11,439 nt of DNA from contig CAKTUC010000042.1 in assembly GCA_934617135.1 (NCBI GenBank), positions 1 to 11,439 on the forward strand, given 5' to 3'. Positions within the stretch are counted from its first letter, which is position 1. The number at the start of each line of letters is the position of its first letter. Below are positions 2 through 6,728 of this stretch, in pieces. Below the pieces are notes generated by a model that did not search any database, was not told the DNA's origin, and was given only the letters and a program-made list of their open reading frames with translations. Made by a program: the position numbers and the translations under genes. This DNA comes from an uncultured Collinsella sp. (lineage in GTDB: Bacteria; Actinomycetota; Coriobacteriia; Coriobacteriales; Coriobacteriaceae).

Positions 2-3000
2 ACCGCCGCCCTTAAGGGCTGCTACGTCGTGGCCAAGGCCAACGGCGGCTATGGCGAGCAGAAGCCCTACTATGCGGTGGGTCCTGTCTCCGTCGCTGGC
101 CAAGTTGAGCTTTACGACGTGCAGTTCGAGGGCTCTCCTGCCACCAACGGCGTACATGTGGGTGATACGCTCAAGACTAAGGTGCGCAAAAAGGACGGCT
201 CCAGCTATAGCTATATCGGTCGCACCGATAATGTGAGCTACCAGTGGCAGTATGCAAATAGCAGCTCAAGCTATGACTCCGCCTATACTGACATCCCCGG
301 TGCCACTGAGGCCACCTACACCGTTGACGCCGCCTATGCCGGCAAGTACCTGCGTGTGAAGGTGACGAGCGAAAATACTGTTTCCAGCACGCAGAAGAAG
401 AGCTCCTACGGCGGCACGCAGTCCGTAGCTCCGCTCGGCCCCGTGACGCTTAAGGGTCAGTACAAGCTGGCGGGCATTGAGCTTGCCGATAAGAACGTTA
501 CGCTCAGCGTGGGTTCAAAGATCACGCCGAGCGTGCAGGTTCCGGGTAGCTGGTCGGGCTCGACGAAGGACGTGCCCGAGGATGCCGAACTCACCATGGC
601 GTGGTATGCCAAGGGCGAGGGCGATGCCGATTGGACCGAGCTCACCGACGACATCGATACGACTGATGGCAGCCTGACCATCTCGGACGCGCTTGTTGGC
701 AAGCGCATCAAGGTTACGGCGAACGCCCTCGACAACACCGTTGAGTGGGTTTCGTCCGATAGCGTCACCACGGCGGGGGAGTACAACCTGCTGCGCGTAA
801 TCGCCAACCCGCAAATCAATAGCGACTCGACTCATCTCGTTTCGGGCGACAGTGTCAAGGCGACGGTACAGGCCAAGCGCGCTGACGGTTCGACCACCAA
901 CGGCATCGACGTGACCGCTCAAACGACGGTTTCCTGGTACGCGGCCGACGATGCGAAGGCTCCCGCGGCTGACTGGACGCTGCTGTCCGACATGTCGGGC
1001 GCCACGGCGACGGTCTCGGCTTCTGCTGCGGGCAAGTATCTGAAGGCTGTCGCTACGAGTGGCAGCTCGACGGTCGAGCTCATCTCCGCTAACAAGGTTA
1101 TCGCCGCAGGCTCGCTCGAGGCTGCAGTCCAAAAGCTCACCGATGCCAACAAGCAGATTGTTGTTGATTACAACGCCAAGGGCGGCAACGTCAACGATGT
1201 CCTGAAGGCGCAGCTTGCTGAGCTTGGTTTCGATGACGTTGACGTTAAGGTCGTCGAGGGCGGCGTGCTCTTTAAGGCCGAGGATGCCAAGGCTACGGTC
1301 GGCATTTCCGACGCCCAGGATAAGACCAATGGCGATGTGACGTTCTTCTACATCGATCCTAACGATTACACGGGCTATAACATCGACGGCCTGCGTAGCG
1401 CTGACGTGGCGTTTGAGCTGTCGCGCGACGGCAAGACCGAGCACTACCAGCCTAACAAGACGGTGCAGGTTGCTTGGGACGAGGCTCGCGTGCAGCAGAT
1501 GCTCGACGATGCTGCCGAGCAAATCGCCATCGGTTATGCCGCGGGCGATTCGGCCGAGTCTGTAACGTCCAACCTCACGCTGCCATATCGCGCAGGCTCC
1601 AAGAGCAAGTTCGAGGTCAGCTGGAAGAGCTCCGACGGCGATGTCATTTGGCCCTCCGGCTATGGCTGGAGCGACTACACCGGCAAGGTGACGCGCGCCT
1701 CGAGCGATCGCGCCGTTACGCTGACCGCGACCGTTTCATTTGTGAGCGGTGGCCCGAAGGACATCGAGGGCTCGCATGACTTTGCCGTGACGGTCAAGGG
1801 AGATCCCGAGAAGGTCGCCGCCGACAAAAAGGCGCTGCAGGAGAAGGTCGATGCGGCCTTTACCTACGACAACATCAAGTACTCCGGTACCGATGCGGTT
1901 GCCAACAAGGACGGCCTGACCGCCGATCTGCAGATGCCGCGCACGAGCGCGCTCAATATCGATGGCAAGTATTACAAGGTCGAGTACTCCGCAAGCACCG
2001 ACGACATTACGTTCAACGGTTACAAGGGCACGGTCTACCAGCCGCTGCCCGGCGCTAAGGCTGCGAACACCAAGATCACCCTCACGGTGACCGACAAGTC
2101 CAACGCCGAAGTCACGGCCAGCAAGACCCTCGACTTTGCCATTGCTCCGCAGGACCAGTCCGAGCTCAAGGCTGAGCTGTTCTACCTCGGCCTTGCGAAG
2201 TCTTCGTTCTACCTGGGTATTCTTGACGGGCAAAATATCTCCGATGTGACGGGAAACCTACATGCGCCGCTGAAGGTGTATGGTCAAGGGTCCGGTCTGG
2301 GATCTGCTGTTAATTGGTGCTACACCACCGAGGAAGCCGCTGGCCATTATGGTTTCGTGTTCAGCGAGCTCCCCGGCGGCACGGAGAGTACCTATCGTCT
2401 GCTTAAGTCGAGCAAGCCGAGTGTTATCTCGCACGAGAACCTTCTGCTTAAGCAGCCCAAGTACAACACGAAGGTTACGATCAGCGGTCGCTTGAAGAGC
2501 GAGCGATTCGCTCGTTATGCCGAGCGCTATCCCGACGATTCTGACTACGCGGTGCTTGCCGGCCTGGATGTATCCGCGACGGTCACCGTCAAGGGAACGA
2601 CGGGTCTCGATAACCCCAACGAGGGCAAGACCATTACGGTAACGGCCAAGGTCACGGGTGTGTCGGCAAGCGATGCCGACGGTAACTACACCGAGCAGTC
2701 GGTCGTGCCGCTGACTGAGGTCACGCTTCCTGCCGATGAAGACACGACGGCCGAGTCGGTGCTCGAGCAGCTTATGACGACTGCCGGCTGCACTGACCTC
2801 AAGGCAAATGGTTTGGGCCTTACGAGCGCGACGATGCCTGATGGTCGCGTGCTTAGCACAACAAGCACCGAGCCGTACAGCTACTGGTCGTTCTTTGTGA
2901 ACAATGAGTACTCGTATAATGCCGGCGCTTCGAGCTATTCCCTCCAGAACGGCGATTGCGTTGAGTTCCGTTACGTTAAGGGCGACGGTACGCAGAAGCC

Positions 3001-4906
3001 TACAAAGGCTCCCGCTACCAATCCTGGAACCGAGCATCCTGATGTTGATGCGTCGTGGAACGGCTTTGCGAATGGCGGTTCTGGTTCTGCAACGGACGCT
3101 CTTACGCCCACGACAAAGACGGACAAGCCTTCTTGGGCGCTCAAACTTTTGACCGACGAGCAGCAGAAGGCGGGCGCAAGCGTCTCCGCGTCTGACCCCA
3201 TTGTCGCGAATGGCAAGGTGTACCTTGTCACGGGCGCTTCGGTATGGAACGGAAAGACATGGAATGCTGTCCTCAACGAGATTGACTCCAAGACGGGTTC
3301 CGTCGTGCGATCGCTTGAGCTTGGCTCTTCCATGGATACCACGTGCCGTCCTGTTGTCGCGCAAGGCATTATCTTAATTCCGCTTTCTGGCGGTTACCTG
3401 CAGGCCGTTTCGGCGAAAACGTTCGAGACGCTGTGGTATTCCGACGCTTTTACCAAACAGAATCTGTCTTCGCTGACCGTTGATGGTGACTACGTCTATA
3501 TCAACACCCTTGATAAGTGGTCCAACAACGACGTGCAAAACGGCACCGTTAAGCGCATTAATATTCATACGGGTGCAGTTGCCGGCAGTGCCACTGCTGA
3601 CGACGGCGGTTACTATTGGTCTGGTGGCCTGATGGCCAACGGCTACTATGTAGTTGGCGGCGACTTTGGCCAGGTGCGTGTGTATTCTGCCGATCTGTCG
3701 AAGCTTGTTGCCTCCCTCAAGCTCTCCGGCGGCAATATTCGTTCGGCGCTTACCGTTCATGACGGCTATGTATATGCTGTCACGCGCGACGATGGCACCC
3801 TGCATAAGCTCACCATTGGTTCCGATGGCTCCATTGCCGAGGTTGCGAAGGCGCAGTTTGCCGCGTATTCGACTTCGACGCCTGTATTTAGCGGCAACTA
3901 CGCATTTATAAACGGTGCGACCACGAATAATTGGAAGGCCAAGGGCCTGCTTTCGATCATCGATCTTTCCGATATGAGCGTGAAGCAGATTGCGAAGGCC
4001 GATGGCGAGGAGCTCGGCTTTGAGTCCAAGAGCACGCCGCTTGTTTCGACGCGCGATGGCGAAACGTACGTGTACTTTACGCTGAACGGGGCCAAGGGCA
4101 ATTGGCCTAATTACACTAGCGGCGGTGGCGTGTACATGTACAAGCTGGGCGATGCCGAGGCAACCGAGGTATTCGTTCCTGGTTCTGGATATGCCAACTA
4201 CTGCATGGCGTCGGTCGCGTGCGATCAGTTCGGCAATCTGTATTACACGAACGACTCGGGCCACCTGTTCTGCGTGAAGTCTCAGGCACATCGCGTCAAG
4301 TTTGATGCCAAGGGCGGTTCGTCGGTTGATAGCCAGACCCCCGCTTCGGGCTCGACTGTCACCAAGCCGGCCGATCCGACGCGTGAGGGCTATACCTTCG
4401 CTGGTTGGTATACCGATGAGGCTTGCACGGAGGCGTACAAATTTGACGCTGCGGTGACGGCCGATATGACGCTGTATGCCAAGTGGACCAAGAATGTCGT
4501 TAACCCTGGCGGCAATGGCGACTCTGACTCCAACGGCGGCAATGGCGGATCTAACGGCGGTTCTGGCAATGGCACGAACGGCCAGCAGGCTGGCGGCGCT
4601 GTTGCTCCGGGCCAGAAGCCGGTGTCCACCACGACCAAGACCGAGACCAAGGACGACAAGGATTCCAAGAAGGATTCCGACAAGTCCGATAAGAAGGACA
4701 GCAAGAAGTCTGACAAGAAGGACGACAAGTCCAGCAAGTCCGACTCCAAGTCCGATTCGGGTTCGGCTGCTACGACTACCGCTGAGGAGTCCGCCGAGGC
4801 TTCCGCACAGCAGGCTGGCTTCAACCCGCTCGCTATTGTCGGCGTTGCGGCTGGCGTGATCGGCCTCGCTGTCATCGCCGTCTTTATGCTGACCAAGCGT
4901 CGGTAG
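2..4906 (+). CDS. Giant mosaic cell-surface protein (Ig-like modules, DUF4430, PQQ-like propeller, InlB repeat, C-terminal anchor), 5' partial
   Basis: The frame is open to the window edge, and the GTG at 29 lies inside a module, so the N-terminus and signal peptide are upstream; 1634 residues are visible. Residues 1 to about 370 hold the end of one module and three full Ig-like modules. They are marked by recurring GPV-GQ or AG junctions (119, 107 and 111 residues apart), W-Y/Q core strands and a G-K-Y/R-L/I-K/R motif. Residues about 490-860 look like degenerate bacterial Ig sandwiches (NLTLP, VSWKSSDG, VTLTATV). Residues about 873-997 match DUF4430, the transcobalamin-like C-terminal fold (YWSFFVNN near 960). 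Residues about 1042-1425 are PQQ-type propeller blades (NGKVYLV, DGYVYAV, FGNLYYT). Residues about 1430-1497 are an InlB B-repeat (EGYTFAGWYTD, MTLYAKW). A Gly/Asn linker, a Lys/Asp/Ser stalk, a membrane helix at about 1609-1631 and KRR complete it. No LPXTG is present. The role is probably adhesion or ligand capture at the surface; the ligand is unknown. Confidence 0.9.
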   Translation, partial: TAALKGCYVVAKANGGYGEQKPYYAVGPVSVAGQVELYDVQFEGSPATNGVHVGDTLKTKVRKKDGSSYSYIGRTDNVSYQWQYANSSSSYDSAYTDIPGATEATYTVDAAYAGKYLRVKVTSENTVSSTQKKSSYGGTQSVAPLGPVTLKGQYKLAGIELADKNVTLSVGSKITPSVQVPGSWSGSTKDVPEDAELTMAWYAKGEGDADWTELTDDIDTTDGSLTISDALVGKRIKVTANALDNTVEWVSSDSVTTAGEYNLLRVIANPQINSDSTHLVSGDSVKATVQAKRADGSTTNGIDVTAQTTVSWYAADDAKAPAADWTLLSDMSGATATVSASAAGKYLKAVATSGSSTVELISANKVIAAGSLEAAVQKLTDANKQIVVDYNAKGGNVNDVLKAQLAELGFDDVDVKVVEGGVLFKAEDAKATVGISDAQDKTNGDVTFFYIDPNDYTGYNIDGLRSADVAFELSRDGKTEHYQPNKTVQVAWDEARVQQMLDDAAEQIAIGYAAGDSAESVTSNLTLPYRAGSKSKFEVSWKSSDGDVIWPSGYGWSDYTGKVTRASSDRAVTLTATVSFVSGGPKDIEGSHDFAVTVKGDPEKVAADKKALQEKVDAAFTYDNIKYSGTDAVANKDGLTADLQMPRTSALNIDGKYYKVEYSASTDDITFNGYKGTVYQPLPGAKAANTKITLTVTDKSNAEVTASKTLDFAIAPQDQSELKAELFYLGLAKSSFYLGILDGQNISDVTGNLHAPLKVYGQGSGLGSAVNWCYTTEEAAGHYGFVFSELPGGTESTYRLLKSSKPSVISHENLLLKQPKYNTKVTISGRLKSERFARYAERYPDDSDYAVLAGLDVSATVTVKGTTGLDNPNEGKTITVTAKVTGVSASDADGNYTEQSVVPLTEVTLPADEDTTAESVLEQLMTTAGCTDLKANGLGLTSATMPDGRVLSTTSTEPYSYWSFFVNNEYSYNAGASSYSLQNGDCVEFRYVKGDGTQKPTKAPATNPGTEHPDVDASWNGFANGGSGSATDALTPTTKTDKPSWALKLLTDEQQKAGASVSASDPIVANGKVYLVTGASVWNGKTWNAVLNEIDSKTGSVVRSLELGSSMDTTCRPVVAQGIILIPLSGGYLQAVSAKTFETLWYSDAFTKQNLSSLTVDGDYVYINTLDKWSNNDVQNGTVKRINIHTGAVAGSATADDGGYYWSGGLMANGYYVVGGDFGQVRVYSADLSKLVASLKLSGGNIRSALTVHDGYVYAVTRDDGTLHKLTIGSDGSIAEVAKAQFAAYSTSTPVFSGNYAFINGATTNNWKAKGLLSIIDLSDMSVKQIAKADGEELGFESKSTPLVSTRDGETYVYFTLNGAKGNWPNYTSGGGVYMYKLGDAEATEVFVPGSGYANYCMASVACDQFGNLYYTNDSGHLFCVKSQAHRVKFDAKGGSSVDSQTPASGSTVTKPADPTREGYTFAGWYTDEACTEAYKFDAAVTADMTLYAKWTKNVVNPGGNGDSDSNGGNGGSNGGSGNGTNGQQAGGAVAPGQKPVSTTTKTETKDDKDSKKDSDKSDKKDSKKSDKKDDKSSKSDSKSDSGSAATTTAEESAEASAQQAGFNPLAIVGVAAGVIGLAVIAVFMLTKRR

Positions 4907-5797
4907 GTGAGGTCCGTGCCCAATAAACCTCAGGACGCCGACTCCAAGCAACCCGACTCGTCGTTCATCCAGTTCGATGACGCTACGCAAAAGGACGCCG
5001 CTTCGGCGGCGTCCGCCCCTCGGCGAAAGGCACTCGTTGGCGTCCTGACTGCCGCCTGCATCGTGCTGATTGCCGTCTCACTTGGCTTTGTTCGCCCCTC
5101 CGCTAGCGGCGCATGGTCCATCGACTGGATTGTCCGAACCGTGACAGGGGAGAGCGTCGTTACCAAGGATGCGTCGGTTTCCGGCTCGACTACCGCTTCG
5201 GGAAAGGCCGGAGGCAAGGATTCCAAATCCTCGGATGATGCGAAGGACGAATCCAAAGATTCGGATACATCTGATTCCAAGGACGATTCCGAATCTTCGG
5301 ACAAGAAGTCGGACAAGGACTCGAAAGAGAAGAAGTCCGATGGCAAATCCGCCGGGCAGAGTTCCGGTTCCACTGGTGGACCTGGCTCTTCTGGCGGCGC
5401 CTCGTCGGGTGGCTCAACCACTGACGGTGCGCCTGTCTCTGGTGGCAGCAGCGCCTCTGCAGGCAACCAGGGCGGCTCACAGGAGTCCGGCCACGTTACC
5501 GTGACGGTCTCGGTCACATCGAGTGCCGTGGGTAATCCTGTCTCGTCTGGCGGTACGTTCACCTTTAACAAGGGTGCCACTCCCTATGACGCACTGTGCG
5601 CGCTGGGCCTTTCCGTTAACGCTCATGGCTCGTCGTACGGCACGTATGTCGCCGCCATCGGCGGTCTAGCCGAGAAAGAGCACGGCAGCACGAGCGGCTG
5701 GATGTACTCCGTCAACGGCGCGACGCCTATGACGGCCTGCAGCAACTACGTTCTCTCCAATGGCGACAACGTCGTTTGGTATTACGTAACAGGTTAG
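4907..5797 (+). CDS. Membrane-anchored DUF4430 (transcobalamin-like C-terminal) surface protein
   Basis: This 296-residue protein begins at the base after the stop of the giant surface gene, so the two are almost certainly co-transcribed and probably translationally coupled. GTG at 4907 is the outermost start. GTG at 4916 is an alternative, with AGGTGAGG just upstream but at short spacing. Residues 1-41 are polar and end in RRK. Residues 42-62 form one hydrophobic helix, so by the positive-inside rule the N-terminus is cytoplasmic and the rest lies outside. Residues about 98-140 are a Ser/Asp/Lys-rich stalk, followed by a Gly/Ser linker to about 195. Residues 196-296 are a DUF4430 domain with the typical SGWMYSVNG segment and a terminal GDNVVWYYV strand. 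Cysteines near 231 and 278 could form a disulfide. Family knowledge links this fold to the cobalamin-binding C-terminal domain of intrinsic factor and transcobalamin; actual cobamide binding here is unproven. Confidence 0.88.
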   Translation: MRSVPNKPQDADSKQPDSSFIQFDDATQKDAASAASAPRRKALVGVLTAACIVLIAVSLGFVRPSASGAWSIDWIVRTVTGESVVTKDASVSGSTTASGKAGGKDSKSSDDAKDESKDSDTSDSKDDSESSDKKSDKDSKEKKSDGKSAGQSSGSTGGPGSSGGASSGGSTTDGAPVSGGSSASAGNQGGSQESGHVTVTVSVTSSAVGNPVSSGGTFTFNKGATPYDALCALGLSVNAHGSSYGTYVAAIGGLAEKEHGSTSGWMYSVNGATPMTACSNYVLSNGDNVVWYYVTG

Positions 5798-5817: not shown

Positions 5818-5856
5818 AAACGGGCGGTTCGGAGCGTATCCGAGCCGCCCGTTTTT
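5818..5856 (+). terminator. Rho-independent terminator of the surface-protein pair
   Basis: The 16-bp arms AAACGGGCGGTTCGGA and TCCGAGCCGCCCGTTT pair fully apart from one G-U wobble, around a 5-nt GCGTA loop. Five T residues follow at 5852-5856. The structure begins about 20 bp after the stop of the DUF4430 gene. Confidence 0.93.
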
Positions 5857-5864
5857 ACTGCGAA

Positions 5865-6218
5865 CGGGACAGAGCTTCCCAATCGAGGCTCAACCGGAAA
5901 GTGCGTCCCACTTTGGGATCGAATAGTGGGATGCAGTTTCCGGTTGGACGGTCATTGGGAAACCGCATCCCGCTTTCGAGCTGAATTCCGGGATGAACTT
6001 TCCGCTGAACTGTCGTTGGGAAAGTGTGTCCCACTTTAGGGGTAAATTCCGGGATGCACTTTCCCGGAGGCACTCATTGGGAAACTGCATCCCACTCTGG
6101 AGGCTGATTCCGGGATGCGCTTTCCTTTTCGGCGCCCATCGGGAAGCTGCGTCCCATTCTGAGGTCCCAAACTGGGACGTGCTTTCCCCGAGAGCACCCG
6201 TTGGGAAAGCGCATCCCA
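5865..6218. repeat. Array of twelve alternating inverted 15-bp half-sites at 30-31 bp spacing (61-62 bp tandem hairpin units)
   Basis: The half-site consensus in one orientation is GGAAAGTGCATCCCA. Half-sites begin at 5865, 5896, 5927, 5958, 5989, 6019, 6050, 6080, 6111, 6142, 6173 and 6204, alternating between the reverse complement (first) and the direct form (last). The spacing is 31 bp nine times and 30 bp twice. Adjacent direct and reverse sites make five imperfect hairpins. The first has 20-bp arms, AACCGGAAAGTGCGTCCCAC against its near complement at 5926-5945. The 15-16 bp spacers are also partly conserved: one class reads roughly CTTT-N2-GG-N4-AATTC and the other ends in CATTG or CGTTG. 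Frames opening here in several registers are not credible genes, because the 61-62 bp unit shifts frame. The function is unknown. Candidates are an intergenic RNA or DNA repeat element of the REP/BIME kind, or a phased protein-binding array. Confidence 0.92.
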
Positions 6219-6259
6219 TTTCGGCATCGTAGCCCGCCTTGCACGTGTCCTCGGCAAAC

Positions 6260-6320: not shown

Positions 6321-6728
6321 CTACGACCTGGCGCCCTCGAGGAAAAAGCGGCGGCTAAAGTAGTTGTACCAGGTGACCAGGAACGTAGCGATGGCCTTCA
6401 TGGCCTGGTAGCCGATGCTCAAAAACGTGACGCCCACAAACATGTACAGGTCGTTGAGACCCAGGCCAATCACCGACAGGATGGTGAAGATCGTGAACTC
6501 ACGCTTGCGGCTCATGCCCTCGCGGTGGTCGAACACGTACTTCATGCTGAGCCAGTAGTTGACCATGACGGACGTGATGAACGAGATCGTGGTGCTCATC
6601 AAAAAGTCGAGGTGGAACAGCTCGACGAGCGCAATGAGCATGCCCCAGTCAATGCCAAAGGAGATAAGGCCCACGACGGCGAACTTGAGAAACTGCTTCG
6701 TATGAGGTTGTGCCAGTGCCTTGCGCAC
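6321..6728 (-). CDS. GtrA-family four-helix membrane protein (copy 1)
   Basis: This 135-residue protein is close to the usual GtrA length (about 120-150). Four hydrophobic segments lie at about 15-36, 42-60, 77-98 and 103-123. A conserved basic loop, SMKYVFDHREGMSRKREF, joins helices 2 and 3, and FNY/YNY-like aromatic motifs and FLEG lie near the C-terminus. Family knowledge: GtrA-like proteins are thought to move or present polyprenyl-phosphate-linked sugars across the membrane for cell-surface glycosylation. The substrate cannot be read from this sequence, and no glycosyltransferase lies next to it. The GTG start at 6728 is chosen because upstream codons to the stop near 6771 contain no ATG, GTG or TTG; a weak GGATG lies upstream. 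It is a paralogue of the gene at 6947-7342, with 26 of 33 residues identical over the central loop and helix 3. A strong terminator follows it. Confidence 0.9.
   Translation of the reverse strand: MRKALAQPHTKQFLKFAVVGLISFGIDWGMLIALVELFHLDFLMSTTISFITSVMVNYWLSMKYVFDHREGMSRKREFTIFTILSVIGLGLNDLYMFVGVTFLSIGYQAMKAIATFLVTWYNYFSRRFFLEGARS

Follow-up and report, generated by a model that had tools for sequence, protein, structure and literature searches.

A dispersed family of phased, alternating half-site arrays in the Collinsella aerofaciens clade

The array between the DUF4430 and gtrA genes

The stretch of DNA analyzed here (the window; 11,439 bp, contig CAKTUC010000042.1 of the uncultured Collinsella sp. 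assembly GCA_934617135.1) carries an array of twelve 15-bp half-sites in the gap between two convergent genes, one coding for a DUF4430 domain-containing protein and the other for a GtrA family protein. Positions 29-4906 are occupied by an ORF of 1625 aa with DUF4430, a Listeria-Bacteroides repeat, a bacterial Ig-like domain, and an apparent C-terminal membrane segment; it adjoins a second DUF4430 gene. The features of the locus are as follows.

4907..5797, + strand: gene for a DUF4430 domain-containing protein, the convergent left neighbor
5818..5854, + strand: stem-loop (inverted repeat) followed by a T-run, between the DUF4430 gene and the array, found with the custom terminator rule
5865..6218, no strand: whole array, twelve alternating 15-bp half-sites, consensus GGAAASYRYRTCCCR
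5865..5879, - strand: half-site 1, at the outer end; its A-partner is missing and the stem-loop of the DUF4430 gene stands in its place
5896..5941, no strand: A unit 1, half-site 5896-5910 (+), A loop, half-site 5927-5941 (-)
5958..6003, no strand: A unit 2, half-sites 5958-5972 (+) and 5989-6003 (-)
6019..6064, no strand: A unit 3, half-sites 6019-6033 (+) and 6050-6064 (-)
6080..6125, no strand: A unit 4, half-sites 6080-6094 (+) and 6111-6125 (-)
6142..6187, no strand: A unit 5, half-sites 6142-6156 (+) and 6173-6187 (-)
6204..6218, + strand: half-site 12; its A-partner has apparently decayed
~6236..6250, - strand: possible decayed half-site 13, GGACACGTGCAAGGC, recognized by eye against locus L005
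6265..6294, - strand: terminator-like stem-loop that follows gtrA and precedes the array, found with the custom rule and the stock scan
6321..6728, - strand: gene for a GtrA family protein, the convergent right neighbor

The orientation of the half-sites alternates without exception, and their starts lie 31, 31, 31, 31, 30, 31, 30, 31, 31, 31, and 31 bp apart (nine spacings of 31 bp and two of 30 bp), which confirms the phased alternating array described in the sequence-only reading. All 12 matches to GGAAN6TCCC in the window fall within the array; 200 dinucleotide-preserving shuffles of the window contained 0.34 matches on average, and none reached 12. The core of the consensus is GGAAA-N5-TCCC, and the 14-bp site, GGAAASYRYRTCCC, is a near-palindrome of the form GGRA-N6-TYCC with two putative contacts ten base pairs apart. 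Two types of spacing alternate along the array, a rigid TCCC-18-GGGA (A) and a looser one (B), in which TTTCC and GGAAA are separated mostly by 16 or 15 bp, so that the true repeat is a unit of 62 bp (or 61 bp). A stem-loop with a T-run was found by the custom terminator rule between each of the two genes and the array, whereas a stock terminator scan of the window returned only that of gtrA (1 found versus a shuffle mean of 1.2).

The window array may have been shortened by half an A unit at either end, given that none of the 33 arrays in genomes G013, G014, and G018 starts with a - site and ends with a + site, as it does; 22 of the 33 start with + and end with - and thus consist of whole A units. 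On the right side, locus L005 has GGAAAGCGCACAAGGC at the place of a possible thirteenth half-site, and comparison by eye suggests that the sequence at ~6236-6250 of the window may be the decayed remainder of one.

Distribution, spacing, and placement of the family

The array in the window is one copy of a dispersed extragenic family that, in the searches made, is found almost only in the Collinsella aerofaciens clade. A two-site pattern had matches in 9 of 12 chosen genomes and in 23 of 43 genomes of the genus, with none for the reversed control pattern. One of the latter, G022, matched through a different palindrome and was not counted, leaving 22 of 43 array-bearing genomes; the pattern had no match in Enorma phocaeensis, C. 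tanakaei, or C. bouchesdurhonensis (G010, G011, and G012). When a three-site pattern was run on a sample of 396 genomes of the class, 22 matched, namely, 21 that also matched at the genus level and G367, whose single array, near the end of a short stretch of DNA, may represent contamination. The palindrome of G022 belongs to a separate REP-like family with nine dispersed copies, in which GGGACGTACCTTCCGCGTGCA (exact in all but one copy, which differs by a single base) is followed by four variable bases and its complement (L124, L126, L127, and L128; 4 of the 9 loci were inspected).

Among genomes with a chromosome-sized contig, G013 has 12 array loci (including one at 2071 kb added from separate searches), G014 has 10, and G030 has 13. 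With one mismatch allowed, A units number 30 in G013, 25 in G014, 25 in G018, and 41 in G030. Exact GGAARSYRYRTCCCR was found 62 times in G013 and G014 together, at positions that all fall in array loci (reversed control, 0), and this search revealed no isolated site linking the motif to a regulator. Outside these genomes, the three-site pattern detected no array in IMG/VR, a phage collection yielded one chance-like 27-base match and nothing convincing, and E. coli genomes yielded no match. In a plasmid collection, the only convincing match, next to three further chance-like ones, was a 900-kb C. aerofaciens record. A phage or plasmid origin was rejected on these grounds, and no mobile element carrying the sites was found in the searches made, which speaks against the array being the remnant of such an element, an outcome that the sequence-only reading had named as grounds for refuting it. 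The 900-kb record, NZ_OY725717.1 (L077, L129-L132, and L170), is labeled C. aerofaciens plasmid 6, carries arrays, and contains the housekeeping genes smpB, asnS, and his, as well as the fructose-1,6-bisphosphatase gene. It looks like a chromosome segment, since in other strains the orthologous arrays sit on chromosome-sized contigs. A literature search with thin coverage of subscription journals brought up no paper about these arrays among the matches listed.

The spacing seen in the window is maintained throughout the family. Across the A loop (+ site followed by - site), the start-to-start distance is 31 bp in 279 of 283 cases; across the B loop (- site followed by + site), the distance is 31 bp in 206 and 30 bp in 32 of 243 cases. 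When no chaining rule was applied, 603 of 626 strong neighboring sites at most 100 bp apart in array-holding loci were on opposite strands at 29-32 bp, and none of the 626 was on the same strand at that distance, so the regularity that had seemed unusual in the window is borne out. The elements do occur in many contexts, yet not with the irregular spacing that the sequence-only reading had named as a refutation. Arrays of G013, G014, and G018 comprise 2 to 15 detected sites, and the longest array listed has 17 (L063). Helical phasing of base composition is weak (P = 0.065 over all positions and 0.006 with the core masked), and DNA-bending periodicity was accordingly dropped as an explanation.

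Among 59 arrays from five genomes, 21 lie in gaps between convergent genes, 30 between genes of the same direction, 6 between divergent genes, and 2 at contig edges, compared with 14, 140, and 39 for convergent, same-direction, and divergent gaps among the other intergenic gaps of the same stretches; none of the 59 is inside a strongly coding ORF. Placement between convergent genes, as seen in the window, is therefore not general, although it is enriched: 21 of the 57 arrays with both neighbors called (the two contig-edge arrays being excluded and orthologous arrays or loci counted once per genome) versus 14 of 193 other gaps. The gene caller used for this count recovered 33 of 33 annotated CDS, but the same 33 had served for its training. 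As a caller of protein genes, it was blind to tmRNA genes, one of which lies on the far side, with its 3' end toward the array, in three of the six divergent cases (L046, L067, and L073). At these three loci, the array is near a second patatin relative, with the tmRNA gene alongside, and the sequence between the tmRNA gene and the array edge includes a stretch resembling the 3' end of a tmRNA or tRNA, which might mark a former integration site. Annotated genes with an array downstream include those for an arsenate reductase family protein, an alpha/beta hydrolase, a methylated-DNA cysteine methyltransferase, a sugar phosphate isomerase, and xanthine dehydrogenase. Of 69 gene ends with an array ahead of them at a distance of up to 300 bp, 45 had no intervening terminator by the custom rule (33 of these 45 are within about 54 bp), so many arrays may be transcribed.

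The largest array-free arcs of G013, G014, and G030 span 854, 1017, and 934 kb (35, 44, and 42% of the chromosome) and are centered nearly opposite dnaA, at 0.54, 0.52, and 0.49 of the circle. The P values are 0.10, 0.05, and 0.02 for an arc that large, in genomes that share loci and are not independent, and 0.04, 0.10, and 0.03 for so small a mean distance from dnaA. About 20 pooled loci all fall within 0.74 of the origin-terminus distance (P = 0.002 for a pattern sought after the positions had been seen), with 3 beyond 0.6 versus 8 expected; in this pooled set, a few near-origin loci are possibly counted twice, the genomes share loci, and the positions in G018 and that of the window itself (0.69) are estimates made through NZ_OY725717.1. 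The absence of arrays from the terminus-most quarter of the chromosome among these ~20 loci is suggestive only.

Strain variation and conservation of the core

The GtrA protein is 96-99% identical across 20 loci of the C. aerofaciens complex, to which the window belongs, and an array occupies the same place as in the window in 4 of them (L005, L007, L012, and L014). L010 appears to hold a deletion remnant, the remaining loci have a short array-free site, and the five more distant gtrA loci (L021-L025) have no array. Several of the array-free sites retain TCCCATTCGCA, a sequence similar to the edge of the final half-site; these sites may represent either array losses or the original state. The gtrA-locus array of L014 is interrupted, from 2827 on, by a sequence resembling an insertion element, an annotated IS3 gene lies 73 bp from the array of L077 with IS21 genes beyond it, and an IS200-type transposase gene (PF01797) is ~400 bp from the array of L159 (G018 C1).

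Twenty aerofaciens-clade loci have a close patatin relative (L078-L097), and at this patatin-thiE locus every one of them keeps at least one A unit, mostly in arrays of 2, 4, 6, or 8 sites. The 18-bp A loop at this locus, itself nearly palindromic, is exactly inverted in G004 relative to G001, with the same B loop alongside. Comparison of orthologue pairs gave 6 cases of an inverted A loop, which represent two distinct inversions, and none of an inverted B loop, whereas orientation was unchanged for 462 A and 449 B neighbors and the loops differed for 239 A and 433 B neighbors; these comparisons are not independent. In one strain, L050, two arrays at patatin-thiE enclose an additional gene. 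Downstream of the xanthine dehydrogenase gene, at the xdh locus, single genes with an array on each side vary between strains (L062, L043, L048, and L070): a 332-aa gene, an ATPase_2/DUF234 gene of 459-463 aa, or both, as in L062 with its order of array, 332-aa gene, array, ATPase gene, array. An AbiEi-like label for the 332-aa gene was discarded, as Pfam assigns it to no family. Unit number, presence, and loop orientation all differ among strains, which makes the arrays strain-variable markers that may indicate sites where single genes come and go.

Against this variation, the core of the site (positions 1-5 and 11-14) is nearly constant. Orthologous arrays with three or more half-sites were compared, after removal of redundant copies, in a strict set (at least 93% identity, 52 ordered pairs) and a looser one (88%, 82 ordered pairs). 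In the strict set, differences were seen in 18 of 2813 core comparisons (0.64%), 140 of 1566 for the centers (positions 6-10; 8.9%), 116 of 2370 for A loops and 89 of 1852 for B loops (4.8-4.9%), and 199 of 4549 for the flanks (4.4%). The corresponding values in the looser set were 1.4, 11.8, 7.3, 6.8, and 5.8%. In a still looser comparison, the core was equally low and the loops, at 17-19%, were well above the 9% of the flanks, probably because unlike units had been aligned. Choosing sites by the consensus in one partner can explain a roughly two-fold lowering of the core figure but not a seven-fold one. Of the changes in the centers, 54 of 69 are transitions, and there is mild clustering within sites (double changes, 14 versus 9.4 expected; triple changes, 3 versus 0.9). 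Gene conversion was rejected as the cause of the fast change in the centers, for which donors within the same array showed no excess (20 of 98 versus 20.5 expected), and it is disfavored for the constancy of the core, since it would homogenize the centers too, whereas these change fastest. Probable contact bases that stay fixed amid drift offer a ready bait for finding a new DNA-binding protein.

Possible functions and comparison with known systems

Were the arms selected to pair in RNA, the variable center bases of facing arms should match. In 28 arrays, the matching was 0.572 for A and 0.576 for B versus 0.581 between arrays, and in a larger set it was 0.584 versus 0.579 for A (250 pairs) and 0.579 versus 0.567 for B (220 pairs). 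Facing arms thus do not covary on average, which disfavors a conserved RNA hairpin, including the structured RNA that the sequence-only reading had offered as one option. It is rather improbable that the arrays are tandem hairpins acting at mRNA 3' ends as a stabilizer, processing site, or terminator. The predicted folding of the two strands is much stronger than that of shuffled sequence (z = -9.2 and -9.9), but such z-scores come from the inverted repeats and any repeat of this kind would give them. The many gene ends with no terminator found before the array would suit an RNA role, although in the window each gene seems to own one, and no Rfam model matched the window at the gathering score. 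In most strains, the arms of the final unit next to thiE agree at the center, and perfectly matching adjacent centers are in excess overall (A, 19 versus 9.3 expected; B, 17 versus 7.1), with no excess at 62 and 93 bp (10 versus 13.2 and 8 versus 10.6). The adjacent excess is inflated by orthologous copies counted repeatedly, and occasional copying of one arm from its neighbor, or a hairpin-linked process, may add to it. Finally, a hairpin has no need of a rigid 31-bp spacing. A function of the DNA is preferred here, although some loci may act as RNA.

With a conserved core, free loops, and no average covariation of the arms, the family behaves like the multimer-binding DNA array that had been envisaged from the window, and it has a slightly better than even chance of being a DNA array bound cooperatively by a dimeric protein, with three helical turns per site. 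Such a putative dimer, possibly of the helix-turn-helix type, would touch GGAA and TCCC one turn apart and tolerate the flexible Y-R center of the site. Sites placed every 31 bp, or about three turns, would put the bound dimers on one face of the helix, where neighbors could be in contact. Two kinds of interface would then alternate along the row, rigid where the 18-bp A loop lies between the dimers and looser where the B loop does. The outcome would be a cooperative row of protein on the DNA beside gene ends; as guesses at its role, chromosome organization comes before transcription insulation. For the nucleoid, partition, or supercoiling role put forward in the sequence-only reading, the one hint in favor is the suggestive lack of arrays around the terminus. 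Several observations count against this protein-bound array: arrays are present in just 4 of 20 gtrA loci and the window and so may be readily lost, no Noc-like ParB paralogue specific to array-bearing genomes (see below) or isolated regulator-linked site was seen, perfect matches of adjacent centers are in excess, for 45 of 69 facing gene ends no terminator was found, the helical phasing is weak, and the distribution of PF01797 genes differs between the two groups of genomes.

The last of these points concerns a selfish or tolerated REP/BIME-like repeat, a somewhat unlikely alternative but still a live one, whose units would be multiplied and moved by a putative enzyme recognizing the half-sites or the A-dyad hairpin and would lie at gene ends because insertion there is harmless. 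The arrays are dispersed, extragenic, 3'-end biased, clade-specific, and variable in presence and unit number, two distinct A-loop inversions separate orthologues, array-flanked genes are gained and lost, and BIMEs are likewise described as regularly spaced alternating repeats with strong length polymorphism (PMC2817692). Genes of the PF01797 transposase family are found in 21 of 21 array-bearing genomes, but also in 15 of 21 genomes without arrays; shared ancestry could account for this difference. A RAYT-driven REP was rejected because none of the five RAYT-like loci of G013 and G014 has a half-site, although the PF01797 tally keeps this rival alive. Inert copies would not be expected to drift in loops and flanks and yet preserve the core, as the resident ones do, and units differ as much within one array as between arrays, so there is no sign of recent spread. 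A recombination substrate is very improbable. Here, arrays would act like attachment sites through which array-gene-array modules exchange or delete single genes, as the xdh hotspot, where L062 holds both variable genes between arrays and other strains hold one, and the extra gene of L050 could indicate. Most of the loci analyzed, however, have no second array within 6 kb, and no recombinase is linked to them; homologous recombination at repeats would suffice.

Within the preferred reading of a protein-bound array, it is an unlikely but more specific possibility that the arrays are sites of a clade-specific DNA-organizing system that forms cooperative rows next to genes in the origin-proximal part of the chromosome and is absent around the terminus. 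The logic would be that of nucleoid-occlusion or macrodomain systems, but with phased alternating operators and two dyad interfaces. The chromosomal site sets of Noc and SlmA are said to avoid the terminus region; the Collinsella arrays may do likewise, with the difference that here the sites form long arrays. A Noc-like ParB paralogue specific to array-bearing genomes was sought and not found: each of 21 array-bearing genomes has one strong ParB_N match, as do the array-free ones except G038, which has none, while G017 has a second match of intermediate score and some other genomes in both groups have weak extras. C. aerofaciens is a common human gut bacterium, and to our knowledge the organization of its chromosome has not been studied.

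Repeated operators in a fixed helical phase are known from plasmid centromeres of the sopC type and from paired NrdR boxes about three turns apart. The Collinsella sites share the fixed phase, which by analogy would suggest cooperative binding, but they occur as many chromosomal copies beside gene ends rather than in a plasmid centromere or promoter, they alternate in orientation, and their motif is not known to be related. CRISPR arrays consist of short direct repeats in one orientation with partly unique spacers of near-constant length. Short repeats and a near-constant spacer length are common to both, but in the Collinsella arrays the repeats alternate and the spacers are semi-conserved, in agreement with the distinction from CRISPR drawn from the window.

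The closest resemblance in layout is to BIMEs, of which the BIME-2 type binds DNA gyrase. BIMEs are described as extragenic, polymorphic sets of regularly spaced REPs in alternating orientation (PMC2817692, PMC3733652), in which the REP unit is imperfectly palindromic and maintained by complementary mutations (PMC2817692) and its head is GTAG/CGTC or GT(A/G)G (PMC2817692, PMC3733652). The Collinsella arrays are similarly extragenic (0 of 59 in a strong ORF) and biased toward 3' ends, and their units are regularly spaced, alternating, and variable in number between strains. In contrast, the Collinsella half-site is a 14-bp bipartite motif and not a palindromic stem-loop, and it shows no complementary changes on average. 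Neither the half-site nor the 62-bp profile, by inspection, has such a head, the five RAYT-like loci of G013 and G014 have no half-sites, the 25-41 A units per genome compare with the usual >100 copies, and the spacing is very rigid. The family is classed here as BIME-like in layout and not as a BIME, since it differs in the palindromic unit, the head, the abundance, and the link to RAYT (at five loci). Such arrays would help to separate selfish palindromes from functional binding arrays, which are entangled in BIMEs.
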